The position numbers and the translations under genes were made by a program. From a bacterium (lineage in GTDB: Bacteria > Auribacterota > UBA3054): a stretch of DNA of 53,017 bases. The notes beneath the pieces were generated by a model. That model saw only the letters and a program-made list of their open reading frames with translations, did not search any database and was not told the origin of the DNA. The DNA lies in the NCBI GenBank assembly GCA_017649705.1, contig JAGCGH010000032.1:1-53017 (forward strand), given 5' to 3'. Shown here piece by piece: positions 6,244-21,234 of this stretch (its first letter is position 1; every line of letters begins with the position of its first letter).

Positions 6244-7785
6244 ATGAGTTTCGTACTTCCCATATCCGCCGCCTTAAGCGCCCTGCTGCTCGTTCTGTCT
6301 TTCCCGAAGTTCGATCTTTTCTTTTTGGCGCCGGTGGCTTTCGCGCCTTTCTTTTGCGCGCTTCTGAAAAGGCGGGGGCGCTCCTTTAGGGAAGGCTGGA
6401 TCGGGGAGGCCTTGTCCGCTTTCCTCCTTTGCTTCCTTTGGTACACGGGCTGCGTCTGGTGGATCTCATATGTTACATTGGCCGGCATGCTGGCCCTGTG
6501 CGCCTTCATCGCTTTTCTTTTCGCGCTGTTCATCCTCGGCGCCATGTTCCTTCTTCGAAAAGGCTATCCCATGGCGCCGGCCCTGGCTTTGGGGTATCTT
6601 TTCTTCGAACTGACCGTCTCCTATCTTTTCACCGGCTTTCCCTGGCTGGCCCTGGGGTACGCCTTTTACGACCGGCCGGTGCTTATACAGGCCGCCGATA
6701 TATTCGGACCGCATTTTCTGAGTTTCGCCCTGGTATTCGTTTCCGGAGCCGTGGCTGAGCTGGCGGTCGGGGAAAAGAAAACCAGGTTCGTTCCCCTGGC
6801 GGCCTCCGCCCTGCTTTGGCTCGCCATCGCCCTGTACGGCTCATTTATGATCCGCTCCCTCGGCAAAGAGAAGCCTCTGAAAACATTCCGCGCTTCCATG
6901 GTCCAGCTGAACCTTCCCCCGGAGCTGAAGCACGACGAGACAAGGGACGAGCAGACGCTTAAAGATTATATGGAGGCCACCAGGGCAGCCGCCGGGAAAG
7001 CGGACATAGTCCTCTGGCCCGAGACCGGAGTCCCGGGTATCTACAACGACTACGCCAACCCCGCGGTGGACAAGCTCCGCGCTTTCCGCCGGGAGGTCAA
7101 GACGCCCGTTTTGTGCGGGCTCACCTGGGCGGAAAAGGACAATGGCGGAAAAATAAATTTCTTCAACGCCGCGGCGCTCCTCGACAATTCGGCCATGCTG
7201 CCTCAGGAGCGCTATTACAAAAAGCATCTGGTGATCTTCGGGGAATACGTCCCCTTGGAGCGCTTTCTGCCTTTCCTGCATCTTCTGACGCCCATATCCG
7301 GCAGCTATTCGCCGGGCGAGCGCTCCCACGTGCTGAACTTGAAAAAAGACAGGGAGACGGTGAAGCTCGGCGCGCTCATCTGCTTCGAGGACGTCTTTCC
7401 GTCCCTGGCAAGGGAGGCCGCGGAGGAAGGCGCGGAAGTGTTGGTCAACATCACCAACGACGGCTGGTTCTTCGATTCGCCCGGCCCTTACCAGCACGCC
7501 GCCCTGGCCCGCTTCCGGGCGGTGGAGAACAGAAAGGAGCTGCTTAGATCCTCCAATACAGGAGTGACGGCGCTGGTGGACCGCCTGGGAAGGGAAAAGG
7601 GGCGCTTCATAGTCGACGGAAAAAGCGTCATGGTGGGCGGAACTTTCGACTGCGAGGCGGAAGTCTTTCCATCGCGCAAAACTTTCTACACCGCCTGGGG
7701 CGACAAGAGCGTCGCGCTCCTTGGGATCGTGGCGCTTTTAGTTTTCGCGCTTCCCGCTTTTGCCGGGAAGGATATGGTAAAATAA
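6244..7785 (+). CDS. lnt: Apolipoprotein N-acyltransferase
   Basis: Lnt adds the third acyl chain to the N-terminal cysteine of lipoproteins in the inner membrane and marks a diderm envelope. The 513-residue product has an N-terminal membrane part with multiple helices (about 1-210) and a nitrilase-like domain (about 220-490). The catalytic triad is visible: Glu260 in WPETGVPG, Lys326 in YYKKHLV and Cys380 in LICFEDVF. The GEYVP and NITNDGWF motifs are also present. A last hydrophobic helix closes the protein. The start codon follows the lgt stop immediately, with a GAGGAG ribosome site inside the end of lgt. Confidence 0.96.
   Translation: MSFVLPISAALSALLLVLSFPKFDLFFLAPVAFAPFFCALLKRRGRSFREGWIGEALSAFLLCFLWYTGCVWWISYVTLAGMLALCAFIAFLFALFILGAMFLLRKGYPMAPALALGYLFFELTVSYLFTGFPWLALGYAFYDRPVLIQAADIFGPHFLSFALVFVSGAVAELAVGEKKTRFVPLAASALLWLAIALYGSFMIRSLGKEKPLKTFRASMVQLNLPPELKHDETRDEQTLKDYMEATRAAAGKADIVLWPETGVPGIYNDYANPAVDKLRAFRREVKTPVLCGLTWAEKDNGGKINFFNAAALLDNSAMLPQERYYKKHLVIFGEYVPLERFLPFLHLLTPISGSYSPGERSHVLNLKKDRETVKLGALICFEDVFPSLAREAAEEGAEVLVNITNDGWFFDSPGPYQHAALARFRAVENRKELLRSSNTGVTALVDRLGREKGRFIVDGKSVMVGGTFDCEAEVFPSRKTFYTAWGDKSVALLGIVALLVFALPAFAGKDMVK
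7775..7783 (+). promoter_or_regulatory. possible extended -10 promoter element before pssA
   Basis: TGGTAAAAT overlaps the end of lnt, about 60 bp before pssA. The same TGG-TA(A/T)AAT string occurs ahead of three other transcription units in this window (11870, 37608 and 48604), which makes it a candidate extended -10 element. No good -35 box is seen. Confidence 0.35.
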
Positions 7786-11900: not shown

Positions 11901-12452
11901 ATGACGCAAAGAGAAATAGACGCAGCCAGCCTTGAAAAGGCTAAAAAAATATTCGAAACAGGCGAAGTTTACGGTTTTGAGACCGGGACCGTCGCCGGGC
12001 TTTGCGCCATTCATTCCGCGCTTTTCAAAGGCCTTTACGACTTTGCCGGCCAGATAAGGAAACTCAACATTTCCAAAGGCAATTTGCGTTTTGCCAACGC
12101 TCTTTATCTTTCCCGGATCCTTCCGGTCATTGAAAAAATGCCCGAAGACACTTTCGATGATATCGTAAAAAAATATGTTGAAATGAACATCGCGCATCCC
12201 TTTATGGAAGGCAACGGCCGGGCCGCGCGCATCTGGCTCGACATGATCCTGAAAAAGCGGCTGGGAAAAGTCGTCAACTGGAGCCTCATTGAAAAAGACC
12301 AGTACCTTTCCGCCATGGAAAGAAGCCCCGTCAACGACCTTGAGATCAAAACACTTTTAAACAAAGCTTTGACCACCGAAACGGCCAGCCGGGAATTAAT
12401 TATGAAAGGCTTGGAACGTTCCTACTATTACGAAGGCTTGGAACCAAAATAA
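11901..12452 (+). CDS. Class III Fic domain AMP-transferase
   Basis: Fic proteins transfer AMP (or another nucleotide part) from ATP to hydroxyl groups of target proteins. The 183-residue product is a single Fic domain with the complete active-site motif [12 protein letters not shown]: the catalytic His, the acidic residue and the phosphate-binding GNGR are all intact. Near the C-terminus SYYYEG matches the inhibitory pattern (S/T)xxxE(G/N). There, as in the class III enzyme NmFic, a glutamate from the last helix blocks productive ATP binding. It is therefore a self-inhibited enzyme, and no separate antitoxin is expected; none is seen upstream. In class III proteins, activity depends on protein concentration and self-modification. 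The target is unknown. It has its own promoter and a small DUF3006 gene follows after 17 bp. Confidence 0.92.
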
Positions 12453-12469
12453 ACAGGGAGGGAGATCCT

Positions 12470-12679
12470 ATGCGTTTGATCATAGACAGAATCGAAGAAA
12501 ACGTCATCGTGGCGGAACTGCCGAACATGAAGACCGTAAACCTGCCTCTTGCCGTCGCCCCCAACGCGAAGGAAGGGGACTACCTTCAGATCTCGCTCAT
12601 AAGAAAAGAGAAGCGCAAAAGATCCAAGCTGGCTCAGGAGATCGCGGATCTGGAAGCCGAGCTCCGGGAAAAAGACTAA
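12470..12679 (+). CDS. DUF3006 family small protein
   Basis: A 69-residue protein that opens with MRLIIDRIEENVIVAELP, the pattern of DUF3006 proteins (a small beta-barrel-like fold of unknown role). The second half is charged and helical (RKEKRKRSKLAQEIADLEAE) and may form a coiled coil. A strong GGGAGG ribosome site precedes the ATG. The gene follows fic closely and may be co-transcribed with it, but nothing suggests it is an antitoxin. Its stop codon lies 18 bp from the displaced 3' end of hemW that faces it, so the two genes were probably once convergent neighbours. Confidence 0.8.
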   Translation: MRLIIDRIEENVIVAELPNMKTVNLPLAVAPNAKEGDYLQISLIRKEKRKRSKLAQEIADLEAELREKD

Positions 12680-12699: not shown

Positions 12700-12742
12700 A
12701 CACAAACTCCGCCATGACGATGTTGGCGAGTTCAACGCCGCG
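12700..12742. repeat. 43-bp direct repeat, left copy (displaced hemW 3' end)
   Basis: It is identical to 19752-19794 over 43 bp, with sequence on both sides differing. Read on the minus strand it encodes RGVELANIVMAEFV, the exact C-terminus of the HemW-like protein, and is followed at once by an in-frame TAA (12698-12700). Its position just past the convergent DUF3006 stop suggests this is the original end of the hemW gene. Confidence 0.95.
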
Positions 12743-12777
12743 AGCATCGGAGAAAAACATCAATTTGCCTTCACAAT

Positions 12778-12806
12778 TTGACAGCCTTTGCTATTTATGA
12801 GAAAAT
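12778..12806 (+). promoter_or_regulatory. promoter of the island operon
   Basis: A perfect TTGACA (12778-12783) is followed after 17 bp by GAAAAT (12801-12806), which matches four of six -10 positions. The first gene starts at 12831 with a GGAGG ribosome site between. The four island genes lie so close together that this promoter could serve all of them. Confidence 0.5.
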
Positions 12807-12830
12807 ATGTTTAAAAATCGGAGGCACGAT

Positions 12831-14831
12831 ATGCGCAACATTCTCAAAATGTTATTTCTCATTTCTTTGATGACTTTCTGCATCTTTGCAAGTGAAGAAA
12901 TACCAGGGTCTATCAACGCCGACACCCTCCAGGGCCTCACCTCTTTTGCTTTCATGACCACCAACGACTTTGAAACTATCAAAGTCACAATAGAAAAACT
13001 CAAAAGCAGCGCCGAAGCCTGTGCCGACAGCATAGTGGACCTCCAGCTGGGGCTTTCATCCTTAAACCACGAGGAACGCCTCGTAAGGGAAAAAGACCTC
13101 AATAAGATCATTGAAGACTATTCCAAAATCAGTTCCGAACTAGTCATATCCAGCGTAGAAAACCAAGGCGACAGGACAGACGATATACAAGCTTTGCAAG
13201 CCGCTCTTGAAGCTCTTGAAGCGGAACTAACCTCTCTTCAGAATTACGTCCATAAATATCTTGGTCATCTTAAATCAGAAGAAGAAACATGGTATTTCAC
13301 CATAGACGGCGCTCTTCTTGGAACAAACGCGAGCATGGTCGCCACTCCTTCCTCAATAAGTAGCACAGTGCTTATAGGCCAGACTTTCCAGGTCAAAAAC
13401 AACTCAAACATCAGAAAGATCAAGATCAAGGCGGAATTATCCGCTCCTCCCTATAACTGCGTATTCCTTTCTCCTTACAGCCCAACCATTACTACAAACA
13501 CATTTGTTTACGCTAGTTCCGCAATAAATGAAGGCAATAACATTTATTCGTATAATTTCAACGATTATCCTGTTTCCACAAATTCCATTTATATATTCGG
13601 CGTAAGAGGAAGGAACTCCTACTCCCAGATCTGCCTGAACAAATGCAATGATGCTTACACCGGAGCGACCAACTGCCTCTGGCTCGGCACAGGCAGCAGG
13701 TACAGCTTAGACGCTCTCTCCGAGTTTGATCTGACCGCACAGCCTAATTGGGACCTTTGCTTCGACATAAGTTTTACGAGTATAACCAATCTCATCGTCA
13801 GCAAAGACGGTATCGAGATAAAGAACGACGCCAGTTTAAAAATAAATGATCAGGAAGCAGCAACTGTTCCTGAAGTAAACGCCAGGATAATGGAAGCCAG
13901 CCAAAGCATATATCAGTCCATAAGCAATCACGTCTTCGGAACGACATCCATAGCGAACGGCTCCATCACTTCCGATAAACTAGCCAACAACGCTGTAACA
14001 GCGGCCAAAATAGGAACCAACGCAGTTACGACCATTAAAATATCCAATGGCGCGATAACTGAAAGCAAAATAGATACCGGCGCGGTAACTGAAAACAAAA
14101 TAGCACTTGGAGCCGTCACAACAGCCAAGATAGACAACGAAGCTGTAACGACAAGCAAAATAGCGGATAGTTCCATAACCGAAAGCAAACTGTCCACCAA
14201 CTCTGTTTCCACTGCAATAATAAAAGACAATGCTATAACCGCCGCCAAAATAAACAATGGCGCAATAAACGGGAACAAGATACAATCTAACGCCATCGCT
14301 TCTTCCCACATATCAGCTCATGCGATAACGGCTGAAAAACTAGCTGCAAATTCAATCCAATTGTCCCATTTTACGGAATTCCTTAAGAGCAATTTGGTTT
14401 TATCTTCAGGCGGCTCAGTAACAGGCAAATTAGAAGTAACAGATTTCATATTTAGAAATTCTGGCGATTGGCATATTGGTACGGAAACAAATCGGACCGA
14501 TTTGATTATTGACAATCAAGAAGGAAATATTGCGACACTTGATGGCGATTTAAATTTAATTGCAAACGGAGAAAACAAAAGCATCAAAGCATTAAGTTTT
14601 CTTCAAATAAATTATCCGGGACAATGCGGAAAATTAGTGATCCCTGCTGGGGACACTTATGCAATTATTTGCGAGACTTTATCTCCAAATGCCGTTATAA
14701 ACATTACGCCAGCCCAAGATACTTTACTTAGATATTGGGTTGATATAGATATTTCAGGACAAGCCACAATCAATATTTCAGACACATGTAATACTAATCT
14801 GTATTTTTACTATTCCATACTGAAAAAATAA
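12831..14831 (+). CDS. Secreted protein with tail-fibre-like decapeptide repeats
   Basis: A signal peptide (MRNILKMLFLISLMTFCIFA) is followed by a helical region likely to form a coiled coil (about 30-145). A beta-rich domain comes next (about 150-310). Residues about 375-505 hold roughly a dozen repeats of ten residues with the pattern (G/N)AVTxxKIxx. The C-terminal domain has about 150 residues. Such AVTxxKI repeats occur in phage tail fibres and other fibrous trimeric proteins, so a surface or particle-attached fibre is plausible. The start at 12831 is chosen over the in-frame ATG at 12807 because GGAGG lies 6 bp before it and it opens the signal peptide. Base composition is intermediate up to about 14390, then turns clearly AT-rich, so the gene looks like a mosaic. 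The partner, host and function are unknown. Confidence 0.7.
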   Translation: MRNILKMLFLISLMTFCIFASEEIPGSINADTLQGLTSFAFMTTNDFETIKVTIEKLKSSAEACADSIVDLQLGLSSLNHEERLVREKDLNKIIEDYSKISSELVISSVENQGDRTDDIQALQAALEALEAELTSLQNYVHKYLGHLKSEEETWYFTIDGALLGTNASMVATPSSISSTVLIGQTFQVKNNSNIRKIKIKAELSAPPYNCVFLSPYSPTITTNTFVYASSAINEGNNIYSYNFNDYPVSTNSIYIFGVRGRNSYSQICLNKCNDAYTGATNCLWLGTGSRYSLDALSEFDLTAQPNWDLCFDISFTSITNLIVSKDGIEIKNDASLKINDQEAATVPEVNARIMEASQSIYQSISNHVFGTTSIANGSITSDKLANNAVTAAKIGTNAVTTIKISNGAITESKIDTGAVTENKIALGAVTTAKIDNEAVTTSKIADSSITESKLSTNSVSTAIIKDNAITAAKINNGAINGNKIQSNAIASSHISAHAITAEKLAANSIQLSHFTEFLKSNLVLSSGGSVTGKLEVTDFIFRNSGDWHIGTETNRTDLIIDNQEGNIATLDGDLNLIANGENKSIKALSFLQINYPGQCGKLVIPAGDTYAIICETLSPNAVINITPAQDTLLRYWVDIDISGQATINISDTCNTNLYFYYSILKK

Positions 14832-14843
14832 AGAACAATCCTC

Positions 14844-16304
14844 ATGAGAAAAAATATTATAAATATTGTAATAGTATTGTTGTTTATATTTGCATCAGCT
14901 TATGTTGAGGCTGAGGTAATTTCACCTCTTCTTCGTTGTTTAAGGTTTGATTTAAATCATATGATAGATGACGTAACCATTCATAGTTCTGTAAATCTTG
15001 ATAATGACGATTGGATAACTATAAATAAAGATGAAAATATGTTTTATTTTATTGCAGACAATGATAATGAAAATCTTGAAAATAAATTTTTGGTTAGTTA
15101 CAGCGGGACTTGGCCAACACCGGAAGCTCATCAGGATCCACATACATTTCAATATGAGCCCCAAATGAACGGTTATATTTATTGCCAATGGGATGTAACT
15201 AACGGCACGCCGGTTGAAGCTGATCAAACAATTACCAACCGTATTTTACGCTCGTATGAAGGTATTCAAATGGATAACGATGTTGACATCTATACATTTT
15301 TACCAACCAATAGTGTTTATTGCATAGAAATGCCTGTAAATTCACGTGTGACAATGTCAATAGACTTAAACATGTCTGATTTTTCAAATATAAGTTTTGA
15401 ATGTACAACAAATGTTCATAACTGTTCGCAAGGTTTTACTAAAAGATGCTATAAAGATGATTGGATAATTGGCGAAAAATATTATATAAAACTCTACTGC
15501 TCAAACAGCAACGATTATTATGAGGCTGATCAAAATTATATTTTTACAATTAGAAATGTACAACCTGTTGTGTTGATTCACGGAATAAATTCGCATCCGA
15601 CATTTCCTGGAGATCCCGAAACAGCATTTTTAGAAATAAAAAGAGTTTTACCACATGCAGATGATCTTCGTCCAATAGTTTTTTTTGACTTTCCTTGGAA
15701 TCCCAAAAACACAAAATATGACCAATATATAGGTGAAAACAATTTGGATAAAAATATATTGTATGGTTATATTTATGATATTTTCATTAACTACAAATTA
15801 AAACCAATTGTTTTTTCTCATTCAATGGGAGGAATATTAATTGTTTGTCAAATAGAAGAAAGAGAAAGCATTGTAAGTCTAATTAGGAATTATGTGTTTT
15901 TTGGTACGCCTTTTTGCGGCTCCGATGCTGCTTCTTATCCGTTCGCTGGATTTTTTTCAAACACTTCTAGCGATAACATTGACCGTTTAAGAAGAGGGAC
16001 CAAGGATGTGTGGGTTTTTATGAGCAAAATACCTACAAGTTTTTTAAATTCCTATTCAACTTTTTTTATAGGAACAGATAATATTTTACGAGGAAAAGAT
16101 TATGGAATTAGTTGGCATAAAAATGGCGGAAAAGATTGTGATGGTGTTGTTTCTATATCATCAGCCAATTTATCCGGGACAATGCATAGGTCAAACGAAC
16201 GCATAAAAGTTAACTATAATCATACCGAAATGAAAGAACTAGTGTTTCCACTTTCGGGTGATTATTTAGATATATACAATAAATTAAAAAGTCATATTAA
16301 TTGA
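14844..16304 (+). CDS. Secreted alpha/beta hydrolase (lipase-like) with N-terminal beta domain
   Basis: The 486-residue product has a signal peptide (about 1-23). An N-terminal beta-sandwich part of about 200 residues follows; its DNDVDIYTF segment resembles the bacterial pre-peptidase C-terminal type of domain. Then comes an alpha/beta hydrolase domain. The latter starts with VVLIHGINSHP (oxyanion loop) and has the nucleophile elbow SHSMGG with catalytic Ser327. A later Asp (KDCDGVVS) and His (NYNHTEMKE) suit the catalytic triad, with the order and spacing of lipases such as LipA/EstA types. It probably hydrolyses an ester outside the cytoplasm; the substrate is unknown. It lies 12 bp after the fibre-like gene and overlaps or abuts the next. 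Codon use is strongly AT-biased, unlike the core genes. Confidence 0.78.
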   Translation: MRKNIINIVIVLLFIFASAYVEAEVISPLLRCLRFDLNHMIDDVTIHSSVNLDNDDWITINKDENMFYFIADNDNENLENKFLVSYSGTWPTPEAHQDPHTFQYEPQMNGYIYCQWDVTNGTPVEADQTITNRILRSYEGIQMDNDVDIYTFLPTNSVYCIEMPVNSRVTMSIDLNMSDFSNISFECTTNVHNCSQGFTKRCYKDDWIIGEKYYIKLYCSNSNDYYEADQNYIFTIRNVQPVVLIHGINSHPTFPGDPETAFLEIKRVLPHADDLRPIVFFDFPWNPKNTKYDQYIGENNLDKNILYGYIYDIFINYKLKPIVFSHSMGGILIVCQIEERESIVSLIRNYVFFGTPFCGSDAASYPFAGFFSNTSSDNIDRLRRGTKDVWVFMSKIPTSFLNSYSTFFIGTDNILRGKDYGISWHKNGGKDCDGVVSISSANLSGTMHRSNERIKVNYNHTEMKELVFPLSGDYLDIYNKLKSHIN

Positions 16305-16309
16305 TAATT

Positions 16310-17455
16310 ATGATAAACAAATTGTTATTTTTTGTGATAATAACCTGTAATTTAATTTACGGTTTATATGAAATAGAATATAACGCCGCTATTGAAATCC
16401 AGGAGATCTTGGACAATAATATTGATGATTATAAATTGCAATATAATTTGGATGATAAAGATCCAATATCTTGGAATAATTTTTCTTATAATAATTCAGA
16501 AAAACAAGGAAATATTAAATATCTTGCCTCCGGTTTATTTATTGACTCTGTTTTAACAAGCAAAAGCGTTGCATTAAGATTGGTAAATAATTTTAACGTT
16601 AGCGATGTTCATTATATTAACATTGTTCCAGAACTTACTACATTTATTAAAATATCCTTAAAGAATGGCACTAATTTTTCATCTCAAGTATATTCAAGAC
16701 ATACTAATAATTTGCCATATAGTGAAATCTATTTTCATGTAAAACCTAAAAATAATTTTTGGGTAAATTTGATAAGATTAATATTTCCTTATATGTATGA
16801 TTTGCTGACACCTAATTCTATCATGAATTTTACTTGGGAACTTATTAATTGTGATATTGAAAATGCAAGTTTGTTTTTAATAATTTTAAATGACAACGAC
16901 ACCATTTTGTCAAAAACAAACGTGACTGGTTTGTCTGGGTATAGCATTAATATGTCTGAGGATGTTTTCCCGTGCGGAAAATATTGGTGGATGATAAGCG
17001 TAGAGGATAACATCGATTGCATTATTTGCTCGGAAAAAAGATGCTTTTATATTTCTAATAGTGTTGATTCTGATTCGGATGGTTACAACGATACAGTGGA
17101 AATTGCCAGAGATTCCAATCCTTATGATCGTGGGGATATTCCATTGATAATAATTTCCGATCCTGTTTGTTCAAATTCGTATTATGGTCAGCAGTATTAC
17201 AACATTTTGAAAGTTAATGACGAGCAAAATAGGGTTTATTGGAACGCTCCAGGTATTCTTCCTTCGGGTTTGATATTGTCTCAAGAAGGAGTTTTGTTTG
17301 GCATTCCAAGAGAAAACGGAGTTTTCCTTTTTGATGTCGAGGTTTTAAACGAAATTGGGAAAAGAGACATAAAGAGATTTTATATGAATATAAAAGATCC
17401 TAATCAGTCTCAAATAAAAAGCGGCGTGGGAGCTTACACTAACAAGGAGAATTAA
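16310..17455 (+). CDS. Exported protein with calcium-binding-type repeat and He_PIG-like Ig domain
   Basis: The protein has a signal peptide (MINKLLFFVIITCNLIYG) and mainly beta-rich sequence. A region near the middle ends in GKYWWMISVED, an Ig/fibronectin-like pattern. Then DSDSDGYNDTVEIARDSNP matches the aspartate-rich calcium-binding loops of thrombospondin type 3 repeats. The last 90 residues fit the putative Ig pattern LPSGLILSQEGVLFGIP...GVFLFDV (He_PIG type). Such proteins are usually surface or secreted. Two starts are possible: ATG at 16310 (used here) or TTG at 16301, which would overlap the upstream stop. It has no obvious Shine-Dalgarno sequence and may rely on coupling. No enzyme motif is seen. 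Confidence 0.65.
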   Translation: MINKLLFFVIITCNLIYGLYEIEYNAAIEIQEILDNNIDDYKLQYNLDDKDPISWNNFSYNNSEKQGNIKYLASGLFIDSVLTSKSVALRLVNNFNVSDVHYINIVPELTTFIKISLKNGTNFSSQVYSRHTNNLPYSEIYFHVKPKNNFWVNLIRLIFPYMYDLLTPNSIMNFTWELINCDIENASLFLIILNDNDTILSKTNVTGLSGYSINMSEDVFPCGKYWWMISVEDNIDCIICSEKRCFYISNSVDSDSDGYNDTVEIARDSNPYDRGDIPLIIISDPVCSNSYYGQQYYNILKVNDEQNRVYWNAPGILPSGLILSQEGVLFGIPRENGVFLFDVEVLNEIGKRDIKRFYMNIKDPNQSQIKSGVGAYTNKEN

Positions 17456-17459
17456 TAAT

Positions 17460-19658
17460 ATGAAATGTATTGTTTTATTATTTATTTGTTTTTTAGCGGT
17501 CTTGTCAGCTTACGGTGCAAAGATAACTAAAAATGACTTTCAAAACGATTACAAGCTGCCGGTGGTCATAGATGTTCCCAATTATGATGATGTGAAAAAA
17601 GGGTATGAGATCCAGGAACAGATATTGCAGCCGGGTGATTATTATCAAAGCGGAAAAGACGAAAACGGTTTCATTTTTAAACAATATGGCTTGATGCCAG
17701 GTTTAGCTACTAATAAAATGTTGCTTGAAAACGCAAAAATTCCGAACTATTTTCAGGCGCTGAATGATTCAAGGCAAAGCGAATACCAGATATTGAAAAA
17801 TGGCGTCAACGCAATAATTATTACTAATTGTGTTTCAATGGCACCGAAGCTTATGGAGGTTAAATATACCCCTAATTTTATAACATCAAATGCTTTTTTC
17901 ATTTCAAATCTTACTGAAACAAATGTTTTATATACTCTTGTCGCTTCAAATCGCGGCCCCCAAATTTTATTTTTAAACACGGATTTAGATCGCAAGGGAA
18001 ACATGTATTTTTTTATGCTGAAACCCAAACAAACAGCTAAATTTTACTTGATATTTAATTTCCTTGAACTGCCTAATTTTGTTGAGAAAAGCAGATTTGA
18101 TGTTGCTTTATATATTGGCTATTATTATCCTCATAATCATATGTTTGGAAATTTGAAAGTTGGAGAAATTATGCCTTTTATTAAGAACGAAAATTATAAA
18201 GCTCCGCAATCACCTATTATAATTTCTCCCTCAAACGGTAGTCGTTTTACAACTTTGAAAGATGTCAAATTTATTTTTAAAAGCAATATTAAAAACAAGT
18301 CAAGATATATTGCTGAACCTAATGGTAAAGGAGAAAGAATTGATTTGAATGGGACTCTTTATAAAATAAATTCAAATGACTCAATTAATTTAAATTTAGT
18401 TGCTCCTTACCTGAATGATATTAGCGCTGAATTGGCAGCTTTAAAAAAATACAACAAAATTAATAAAGATGATGAATTTTTCTTTATCAAAAATCGTAAT
18501 GTTAGTCCGGGTAATTACATATGGAGAATTACTAAACAGAGCTTTGATGACAAAACTGTTGTTTCCGACTGGGGCTGGCTTTCCGTTGGAGAAAAGATAT
18601 CTAAACCAAAAGAACGGCCGCCCAAAGGGCGTTCAATTGCCAAAAACATGCTACAATATTCAAAAAAATATAAATTTTTCTTTTGTATCGAAGAATATAC
18701 AAAAGGCATTGCCTTGGAGGGAAATAATATGAGCTTGGCCTCACTAAGCAACGCTTATTTTGCTTTCCCTTTGCCAAAAGGAATAAAATTGGAGCCTAAA
18801 AAGTATGGCGGCTATTTTACCGGTGTTCCTGAAGAAGTCGGCCGTTTTACCAATTATTGGATAGGTATTAATCGAAACAGTTTTTGTAATGTAGAGACGC
18901 AGAAATACATTTTTGTTGTGCACAACGATCAGAATAAGATAGTGTCTCGCTCGCTGTATCATTTGAATAAGGGTGCAATCGTTCATGATCTTACGGTAAA
19001 TGTTCCCTTTAATTTCAAAGCGAAAGAATATTACGATGAATTCTATAAAAAGGACGGGCTTGAATTTGATGCGAAGGCGGAAACAAAATTCCAGTCTTTA
19101 TTGCCTTTGGGATTAAGCGAGGAGAGAAAAGCAGACGGAGATTTTGCGATCATCGGCACGCCCAAAGAGGGCGGAATTTTCACTAATGTTTTAGTTATAA
19201 GTAGCAACGATTCATCTATTGAGCAAAAACATATATTTAGAATCCAGGATATCGGGGAGCCTCCGGCGCAGAAAAAGATAAGGAAACAAGACAGCATCGA
19301 GAACGACTGGTACGATCAGAGCAGAATAATTTATCATAACTGTTATATAGGAATTGAGACTTATTATTGTCTAGCCAACGATGTGTTCTGGTATAAGCCA
19401 AAAGAATTCACCAAAGAATTCCAATATGAGCTGCTAAATGAACTGCCAAAGGGCTTAAAGATAGCAATGCATGAACCTGATAAGAGATATGACTACTACA
19501 AGCTTCCTCCGCTAATTTCAATTTGCGGGGAACCCCAGGAAGAGGGAGTGTTTACCACCGTGATCAAATATATAGAAAACGGTAGGGAATTTGAGAGAAA
19601 ACACATTTTCAGGATCAGGAAAGAGCCCAGGAGTTACGAGGTTTATGATGTGGACTAG
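17460..19658 (+). CDS. Large exported protein with three He_PIG-like Ig repeats
   Basis: This 732-residue protein begins with a signal peptide (MKCIVLLFICFLAVLSAYGA). The N-terminal 230 residues are not recognisable. A segment near 245-380 holds an Ig-like fold ending in GNYIWRITKQ. The C-terminal half has three related domains, each with a proline-leucine-glycine-leucine type strand and a closing GxPxExGxFT: LPKGIKLEP...GVPEEVGRFTN, LPLGLSEER...GTPKEGGIFTN and LPKGLKIAM...GEPQEEGVFTT. They match the putative Ig (He_PIG) pattern also seen at the end of the preceding gene, suggesting that the two arose by domain sharing. An AAGGAG ribosome site precedes the ATG, 4 bp after the previous stop. 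It ends the island operon. Confidence 0.62.
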   Translation: MKCIVLLFICFLAVLSAYGAKITKNDFQNDYKLPVVIDVPNYDDVKKGYEIQEQILQPGDYYQSGKDENGFIFKQYGLMPGLATNKMLLENAKIPNYFQALNDSRQSEYQILKNGVNAIIITNCVSMAPKLMEVKYTPNFITSNAFFISNLTETNVLYTLVASNRGPQILFLNTDLDRKGNMYFFMLKPKQTAKFYLIFNFLELPNFVEKSRFDVALYIGYYYPHNHMFGNLKVGEIMPFIKNENYKAPQSPIIISPSNGSRFTTLKDVKFIFKSNIKNKSRYIAEPNGKGERIDLNGTLYKINSNDSINLNLVAPYLNDISAELAALKKYNKINKDDEFFFIKNRNVSPGNYIWRITKQSFDDKTVVSDWGWLSVGEKISKPKERPPKGRSIAKNMLQYSKKYKFFFCIEEYTKGIALEGNNMSLASLSNAYFAFPLPKGIKLEPKKYGGYFTGVPEEVGRFTNYWIGINRNSFCNVETQKYIFVVHNDQNKIVSRSLYHLNKGAIVHDLTVNVPFNFKAKEYYDEFYKKDGLEFDAKAETKFQSLLPLGLSEERKADGDFAIIGTPKEGGIFTNVLVISSNDSSIEQKHIFRIQDIGEPPAQKKIRKQDSIENDWYDQSRIIYHNCYIGIETYYCLANDVFWYKPKEFTKEFQYELLNELPKGLKIAMHEPDKRYDYYKLPPLISICGEPQEEGVFTTVIKYIENGREFERKHIFRIRKEPRSYEVYDVD

Positions 19659-19749
19659 ACTATAAAATTTTATTGGGGCTATTATATTTTCAAAAGGCAA
19701 TATTTGCATTGTGTTAAACAATCTTTATATTTACTTGATAAAACTTTAA

Positions 19750-21234
19750 TCACACAAACTCCGCCATGACGATGTTGGCGAGTTCAACGCCGCGGCGGGT
19801 GAGTTTCAGGGTGCTGCCTTTGCAGGTCACGAGTTTGCGGTCGGAGAGGTCTTCTATTTGTTTTTGGAATAATTCTTCATCTTGGGGCGTCAATTTGACG
19901 CCCTCGCTTTTTCTGAGGCCGAGGTAGATGCGTTCCCCGAGTTTTTGGATCTTGTTGAGGGGTTTGGCGGTGATCAATTTCCAGGCTTGGTCCATGCGGG
20001 CGCGCCTTGCAATGTTTCGATAGGGGAAGCGGCAGTAGCTGTGGGCGCCGGGGCCTAAGCCGAGGTAGTGTTTCTCGGTGTCCCAGTAAGTGGAGTTGTG
20101 GCGTGAATAGTAATTGGGTTTTGCGGCGTTGGAGATCTCGTACATCTCGTAGCCCTGTTCTTTTATGAGTTTTCTGGCCAGCCAGTATTCTTTCATGGTC
20201 ACGGCGTCGCTAGGGAGCGTCGGATTCTCCTTTTGGAGAGGCGTGCCTTTTTCCACTGAGAGGGCGTAGAAGGAAATGTGCTCGGGATGCCAGGAGAGGA
20301 GTTCTATTACGCTTTTTTGCCAGGAGGAGATGGTTTGATGCGGCAGGCCGTACATGAGATCTAAGGAAATGTTTTCGAAGCCGTTTTTCCTGAGCGTTTG
20401 GTAGGCTTCTTTCGCTTGCTGGGCGGTGTGCAGGCGGCCCAGGTAATGGAGCTCGTTATCCTGGAGGGACTGGACGCCCAGGCTTATTCTGTTTACGCCG
20501 GCTTGTTGCCAGAATTTTAGGTCCTCAGGGCGAAATGCGGCGGGGTTCGCCTCCAGGGTGCATTCGATATTATCGGGCCAGCGAACGGCCGCTTTTACGG
20601 CCTCAGAGATTCTCAGAAGGGCATCGCCGGGGAGAAGAGAGGGCGTTCCTCCGCCGAAATAAACGCTGGATAATTCCCGGTAGGGCATGAGGGGAAGAAG
20701 CGTTCTGATTTGATGGATGAGCGCTTCGGCGTATTCCTGAATTTCGTTGTTTTGCGGAGGATGACTATAGAAGGCGCAGTAGCGGCATTTTCTTAAGCAG
20801 AAGGGGACGTGGATGTAGAGCGCCAGTTTTTGGGGAGGGGCGGTCCTGGGAAGGGAGATCTGTTCCGCCAGGGCTTTGGCAAGGGGAATGTCGTTGGGAA
20901 GAAGAGCGTATTTTGCGAGGTCTTCTCTTTTTACCCAGGCTAATTTGGCGTGCTCCAGGGGAACGGGCTCGGAGCCTTGGAGTTTGGCGCTGACGCCCAC
21001 CAATCTTATGTTGGTGGTCTTGTCATAGACGATGCCGGTGGGGATGATGTCGGCGGCGAGCTCTTCTTTGATCTCGCGTTGGGCGCATTGGGCGAAGGTC
21101 TCGCCGGGCTTTCTTTTACCGCCGGGAAATTCCCAGCCGCCGGGCTTTCCCGGTTTATCGAGGCGCAGCGCCAGAAGTATCCTGCCTTTATCTTCGATGA
21201 CCGCCGCGGATACTTCAATTGGGTCGTTATTCAA
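19750..21234 (-). CDS. Nudix hydrolase fused to HemW-like radical SAM protein
   Basis: This 494-residue protein joins two enzymes. Residues about 5-128 are a MutT-type Nudix domain: the box runs from Gly39 through Glu45 to REIKEE (53-58), matching GX5EX7REUXEE, so hydrolysis of an oxidised or damaged nucleotide is likely. Residues about 135-494 are a HemW-like radical SAM protein. IHVPFCLRKCRYC holds the iron-sulfur cysteines 146, 150 and 153, followed by YFGGGTPSLL, GVQSLQDNELHYLGR and LMYGLPHQT. The second-cluster cysteine of true HemN is absent, which fits HemW (haem chaperone) rather than coproporphyrinogen oxidase. I am not aware of this as a common fusion. It overlaps fabF by 8 bp and is transcribed with it. 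Its last 14 codons are the repeat that bounds the island. Confidence 0.9.
   Translation of the reverse strand: MNNDPIEVSAAVIEDKGRILLALRLDKPGKPGGWEFPGGKRKPGETFAQCAQREIKEELAADIIPTGIVYDKTTNIRLVGVSAKLQGSEPVPLEHAKLAWVKREDLAKYALLPNDIPLAKALAEQISLPRTAPPQKLALYIHVPFCLRKCRYCAFYSHPPQNNEIQEYAEALIHQIRTLLPLMPYRELSSVYFGGGTPSLLPGDALLRISEAVKAAVRWPDNIECTLEANPAAFRPEDLKFWQQAGVNRISLGVQSLQDNELHYLGRLHTAQQAKEAYQTLRKNGFENISLDLMYGLPHQTISSWQKSVIELLSWHPEHISFYALSVEKGTPLQKENPTLPSDAVTMKEYWLARKLIKEQGYEMYEISNAAKPNYYSRHNSTYWDTEKHYLGLGPGAHSYCRFPYRNIARRARMDQAWKLITAKPLNKIQKLGERIYLGLRKSEGVKLTPQDEELFQKQIEDLSDRKLVTCKGSTLKLTRRGVELANIVMAEFV
19752..19794. repeat. 43-bp direct repeat, right copy (functional hemW 3' end)
   Basis: It is identical to 12700-12742. 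It encodes the last 14 codons of the HemW-like gene on the minus strand, followed by TGA at 19750-19752. With the left copy it brackets the AT-rich island. Confidence 0.95.

Follow-up and report, generated by a model that had tools for sequence, protein, structure and literature searches.

Accessory genes for surface structures are known to occupy fixed chromosomal slots in flexible genomic islands (Lopez-Perez et al. 2014, PMC4033161) and in integrase-less hotspots (Oliveira et al. 2017, PMC5635113). The contents of such islands and hotspots are present, absent or swapped among close relatives, recombinases are lacking and the flanks carry signs of recombination, all of which is also found at the locus described here. 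Half of bacterial hotspots have no MGEs and 27% have neither integrases nor transposases, and double homologous recombination has been proposed (PMC5635113). Replacement islands, which code for exposed structures (PMC4033161), hold different genes at one locus in all strains. The present locus differs from flexible islands in that a small operon of four or five genes with its own promoter is found in several slots per genome, and from replacement islands in that related operons occupy different slots. Cis-mobilizable elements (CIMEs; PMC5704250) are alike in having direct repeats at a gene 3' end and no integrase or transfer gene.

The window, which is the whole stretch of 53,017 nucleotides that was analyzed, is one contig (C28) of a fragmented 2.12-Mb assembly (G000). 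It was compared with the seven other members of a genus set of eight genomes (G000-G007), all of which are fragmentary MAGs, 83-93% complete; the relatives, RGIG7788, RGIG10100 and RGIG7520 among them, are MAGs from the ruminant gut. The gap between the convergent genes DUF3006 and hemW has received a unit of four genes that runs from their promoter to the last stop codon. The features of the locus are listed below.

12470..12679, plus strand: DUF3006 gene, which borders the slot on the left and is accessory in the genus
12700..12742, no strand: left 43-bp direct repeat, duplicating the hemW 3' end and continuous with the ancestral flank on that side
12743..19751, no strand: inserted AT-rich island by GC and GC3, absent here in all 7 other genus members
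12778..12806, plus strand: sigma-70-like promoter TTGACA-17-GAAAAT with extended -10 TG, kept in the sister copy
12831..14831, plus strand: P0001, fibre-like exported protein, 666 aa
14844..16304, plus strand: P0002, secreted alpha/beta-hydrolase, 486 aa
16310..17455, plus strand: P0003, exported protein with TSP3-type Ca-binding motif and He_PIG (Ig-like) domain, 381 aa
17460..19658, plus strand: P0004, exported protein with He_PIG/Ig-like repeats, 732 aa
19750..21234, minus strand: hemW, a NUDIX-radical SAM fusion, coding kept to the last residue by the duplication
19752..19794, no strand: right 43-bp repeat, the actual hemW 3' end, holding the inverted repeat AACTCCGCCA-N9-TGGCGAGTT

The GC content of the island is 28-45% versus 56-60% in its surroundings (about 58% in the genome), and the GC3 of its genes is 0.21-0.52 versus 0.64-0.80 in neighbouring genes. 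Four genes for exported proteins fill the island on one strand (12831-19658). An earlier note on this DNA had described four closely spaced genes behind one promoter with an entirely exported cargo, and both descriptions were borne out, the spacings being 12, 5 and 4 bp after two start corrections. The most likely start of P0001 is ATG 12831, behind a CGGAGG ribosome site, rather than 12807, because the sister copy begins at the same Met, and the start of P0003 is most likely ATG 16310 rather than TTG 16301. The TTGACA-17-GAAAAT sequence was the top plus-strand promoter match and lies 24 bp upstream of the P0001 start. Each of the four proteins is predicted to have a hydrophobic, signal-like N-terminal segment and no later TM-like segment. 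Searches of Pfam, NCBIfam and PHROGs detected no recombinase, replication or packaging gene in the island, as the note had stated, and gave no integrase hit for any of the four proteins. Membership in a prophage or ICE was rejected, as the same searches found no structural, packaging or conjugation genes. An assembly chimera was also rejected, since one false join cannot place the 43-bp repeat on both sides of the island.

The hemW slot was found empty in 7/7 other genus members. G007 and G006 contain DUF3006, a single copy of the 43-bp sequence and hemW at this site, while hemW directly follows Fic in G001 and an ABC permease in G002-G005, in all cases with no island. The order DUF3006, single copy and hemW in the sisters therefore indicates that the block is a gain at this site, accompanied by duplication of the hemW end. 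Loss of an ancestral operon from the other species, instead of a gain in G000, would agree with the presence of a related core locus in all genomes; it is nevertheless highly improbable in view of the empty site common to 7 relatives (two of them with a single repeat copy), the AT-rich GC3 and the repeat, which itself marks an insertion. The left side of the slot varies within the genus: the Fic and DUF3006 region (11901-12679) sits between a zinc ABC permease and hemW, with both genes in G000 and G006, Fic only in G001, DUF3006 only in G007 and neither in G002-G005. HemW carries an N-terminal NUDIX (MutT-like) domain, and this fusion appears to be genus-specific, since outside the genus the similarity of HemW relatives begins only at residue 135.

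The 43-bp repeat is perfect, occurs only twice in the assembly and begins inside the hemW stop codon; hemW retains its last residue and now ends with TGA instead of TAA. The single copy of the sister differs at 3 positions from the two G000 copies, which are identical to each other and thus recent. The inverted repeat with its 9-bp centre had a shuffle p of 0.003 and was matched by 0.9% of the 43-mers of the window. These properties could be those of a non-autonomous integrative element (CIME-like or satellite), in which the repeats would be attL and attR and the integrase would come from another element; the note had likewise proposed a passenger moved by another element. A perfect repeat at the 3' end of a gene that stays intact (hemW), an att-like inverted repeat, and a small extra tyrosine recombinase on another contig (G000:C79) are in favor of this reading, but we regard it as rather unlikely. 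No flanking repeats comparable to these were found within hundreds of bp at the other operon copies, including the 94%-identical copy in G007, and no sequence derived from the 43-bp repeat was found at other operon loci, only empty hemW ends being matched. Flanking repeats were rejected as a hallmark of the family, a long perfect repeat being present at the window copy only. Unlike with CIMEs, there is no related ICE or IME, and the site is not reused: neither an integrase-bearing element at the hemW site, in 7 genus genomes, nor a matching integrase was found in our searches. Xer-exploiting elements (IMEX) enter dif-like sites; the target of this insertion is the coding end of hemW.

A partner for such a passenger was sought among the recombinases of the genome. 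The tyrosine recombinases of G000 are two of the Xer type and a tiny, unrelated one of 175 aa. No serine recombinase was found in the 4 genomes searched, while a control search found such enzymes in 10/14 reference genomes; a recombinase could be missing from these data because all of the genomes are fragmentary MAGs. The 175-aa protein consists of a catalytic domain only and is encoded on a 3.7-kb contig (L168; G000:C79), a small element that also codes for an ORF2/G2P-type rolling-circle Rep.

The same operon is present in the nearest sister species, G007, on contig C194 near nusG, that is, at another locus than hemW. The nusG-side site lacks the operon in G000 and G006, and the hemW site lacks it in G007. 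Identities between the two copies are 94% for P0002, 99% for P0003, 95% for P0004 and about 83% for P0001. Homology begins just upstream of the promoter and ends at the last stop codon, and thus the two copies share no element ends, which counts further against an attL/attR element. A second copy of the promoter and P0001 start lies downstream in G007 and forms an imperfect 106-nt direct repeat around the operon; the insertion boundaries there are not base-exact because the locus lies in a hypervariable gap. The dS values between G000 and G007 are 0.59 (P0001), 0.12 (P0002), 0.005 (P0003) and 0.17 (P0004), compared with 0.03-0.09 for 5/6 neighbouring genes, and operon identity reaches 97-100% mid-operon and falls toward both ends. 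In flank patches at 12500 and 20100, G007 is closer to the more distant G006 than to G000. These patterns are signs that the two operon copies are recombinational mosaics, and traces of homologous recombination are thus seen both within the island and in its flanks. Outside the island, the apolipoprotein N-acyltransferase gene (6244-7785) has a dS of 0.71 versus 0.03-0.09 in its neighbours, which suggests allele replacement at this gene.

Protein searches and gene maps were used to define the family to which the island belongs. AT-rich operons for a fibre-like protein, a secreted alpha/beta-hydrolase, a TSP3/Ig protein and an Ig-like protein are present in several copies per genome, and four kinds of loci were distinguished.

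Kind A: fibre, hydrolase, TSP3/Ig and P0004 genes, in the window, on G007 C194, twice on G002 C60, and on G002 C49 (cut by the contig end)
Kind B: five genes with longer relatives
Kind C: core locus with the GC of the host, next to a melibiase gene and holding relatives of the fibre, hydrolase and TSP3/Ig genes; found in 8/8 genomes (truncated at contig ends in G005 and G007)
Kind D: lone P0004-like genes in several places

The conserved foursome that the note had anticipated is thus confirmed in part: several AT-rich copies have the genes together, but P0004-like genes are also found alone elsewhere. In two more distant genomes of the same taxonomic order, the genes for fibre, hydrolase and TSP3 proteins are arranged alike. 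A gene set spanning two phyla was considered and rejected, as both distant matches (G012 and G013) belong to the order of this genus. Among 84,980 species' genomes, hydrolase relatives were confined to this genus and order, in a scan that leaves room for other relatives because it was based on one short motif.

Two slots in addition to hemW and nusG could be delimited to within a few bases. At the L132 slot, G006, G001, G000 and G005 are empty, and a G002 contig passes from the shared left flank into a fibre-type gene; G004, G003, G005 and G001 are empty at the L075 slot. At a tRNA-Leu slot an operon is common to G000 and G002, with proteins 73-95% identical versus 61-77% in the flanks, and the G005 version is broken by an IS3-like element. 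Both neighbours are known for nine copies, and six of these are in gaps between convergent genes. Slots are therefore empty or differently filled in close relatives, as in flexible islands, which fits the second proposal of the note, a swap cassette for surface proteins. An IS3-like transposase pair (HTH_Tnp_1 and rve) is located at L080:14476-15691, L089 and L129; it splits a fibre gene in G005 and adjoins TSP3/P0004 relatives in G006 and G007. A palindromic intergenic repeat, CACATATCCCC..CTCACGGACTACGC..CTCCGTGAG..GGGGATATGTG, is MITE- or REP-like and was found at L121, L122, L081 and L088 in several genus members.

None of the four window proteins has a curated Pfam assignment. P0001 comprises a coiled-coil-like N part, 15-residue pseudo-repeats and a conserved C-terminal domain. 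The pseudo-repeats match phage tail fibre families, and the modelled tip resembles receptor-binding tips of phage tailspikes and baseplates with modest significance (E about 0.003-0.03); this fold match is weak because model confidence is low (mean pLDDT 41.6, tip excepted). P0001 resembles phage tail fibres and tailspikes in its pseudo-repeat stalk and modelled C-terminal tip fold, and differs from them in its signal-like N-terminus and its place in a chromosomal operon with exported partners and no phage genes nearby. A decayed prophage or ICE that has lost its mobility genes, with P0001 as a leftover tail fibre, might be suspected from this likeness. Such an origin is very doubtful, however: none of the 4 genes is broken and all encode exported proteins, the unit is found again at many sites and at a core locus of host GC, the phage likeness of P0001 lies mainly in the repeats, and no convincing phage or viral relatives were found for P0002 and P0004, nor plasmid relatives for P0002. 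P0002 has an HSMGG nucleophile elbow and an invariant triad (Ser327-Asp433-His460), and its matches to hydrolase families lie below Pfam cut-offs. In its model, the alpha/beta-hydrolase fold with this triad is predicted and resembles lipases and esterases (Bacillus lipase A, BlEst2, LCAT/Abhydrolase_6); it differs from these in an extra N-terminal beta-sandwich that resembles the collagen-binding domain of ColG collagenase. TSP3 is found in 11/14 and He_PIG in 3/14 relatives of P0003, and P0004 weakly matches the SraP adhesin. Placement at the surface is based on the predicted signal-like N-termini and adhesive domains, from which a function in adhesion and ester cleavage may be inferred.

Taken together, the island is best read as an additive/replacement flexible genomic island that carries an undescribed surface operon. 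With a probability of roughly 0.6, we consider it one of the filled slots of a multi-copy family of surface-protein operons that extends across the genus and is spread by general recombination. This explanation is supported by the empty hemW site in 7 members, the same operon elsewhere in G007, the multi-copy family, the precise occupied/empty pairs at two further slots, the tRNA-Leu slot, the mosaic divergence between G000 and G007, the recombinant flank patches and the six copies in convergent gaps. Against it stand the resemblance of the perfect 43-bp repeat with its inverted repeat to a site-specific att site, and the fact that neither a donor molecule nor an intermediate was observed. The units would arrive as exogenous DNA, mostly through general recombination with no dedicated recombinase, by homologous exchange via shared flanks or operon ends and by occasional illegitimate insertion. 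This would explain mobility without a recombinase and fits both PMC5635113 and PMC4033161. A single illegitimate insertion, of which the 43-bp repeat would be the scar, would have duplicated the end of hemW while keeping the gene functional. One-sided (homology-facilitated) illegitimate recombination is among the processes reported in naturally competent bacteria and E. coli (PMC3240628), and could in principle leave such a duplication. Convergent 3'-3' gaps would be kept because insertion there is harmless and each unit brings its own promoter. A class of non-autonomous mobile surface operons, in which promoter-to-stop units enter 3'-3' gaps as discrete blocks by machinery yet to be found and diversify a fibre-esterase-adhesin complex, can be imagined and seems improbable.

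According to the general-recombination reading, the four exported proteins may cooperate at the cell surface. The fibre would form a stalk bearing a tailspike-like tip, the TSP3/Ig proteins would serve in adhesion and be stabilised by Ca, and the hydrolase would cut an ester of the bound polymer. Exchange would then diversify these proteins and so alter the adhesion range or hide cells from phages. The operon points, tentatively, to a surface complex of a phage-like fibre and a predicted esterase. This surface operon family of uncultured ruminant-gut bacteria provides clean empty/occupied site pairs, and therefore gain and swap of surface genes at integrase-less hotspots become directly testable. 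In the window and in other AT-rich copies, GC3 tends to be lowest mid-operon and to rise in the gene at one end, first or last, as though the operon edges adapted to the host before the middle.
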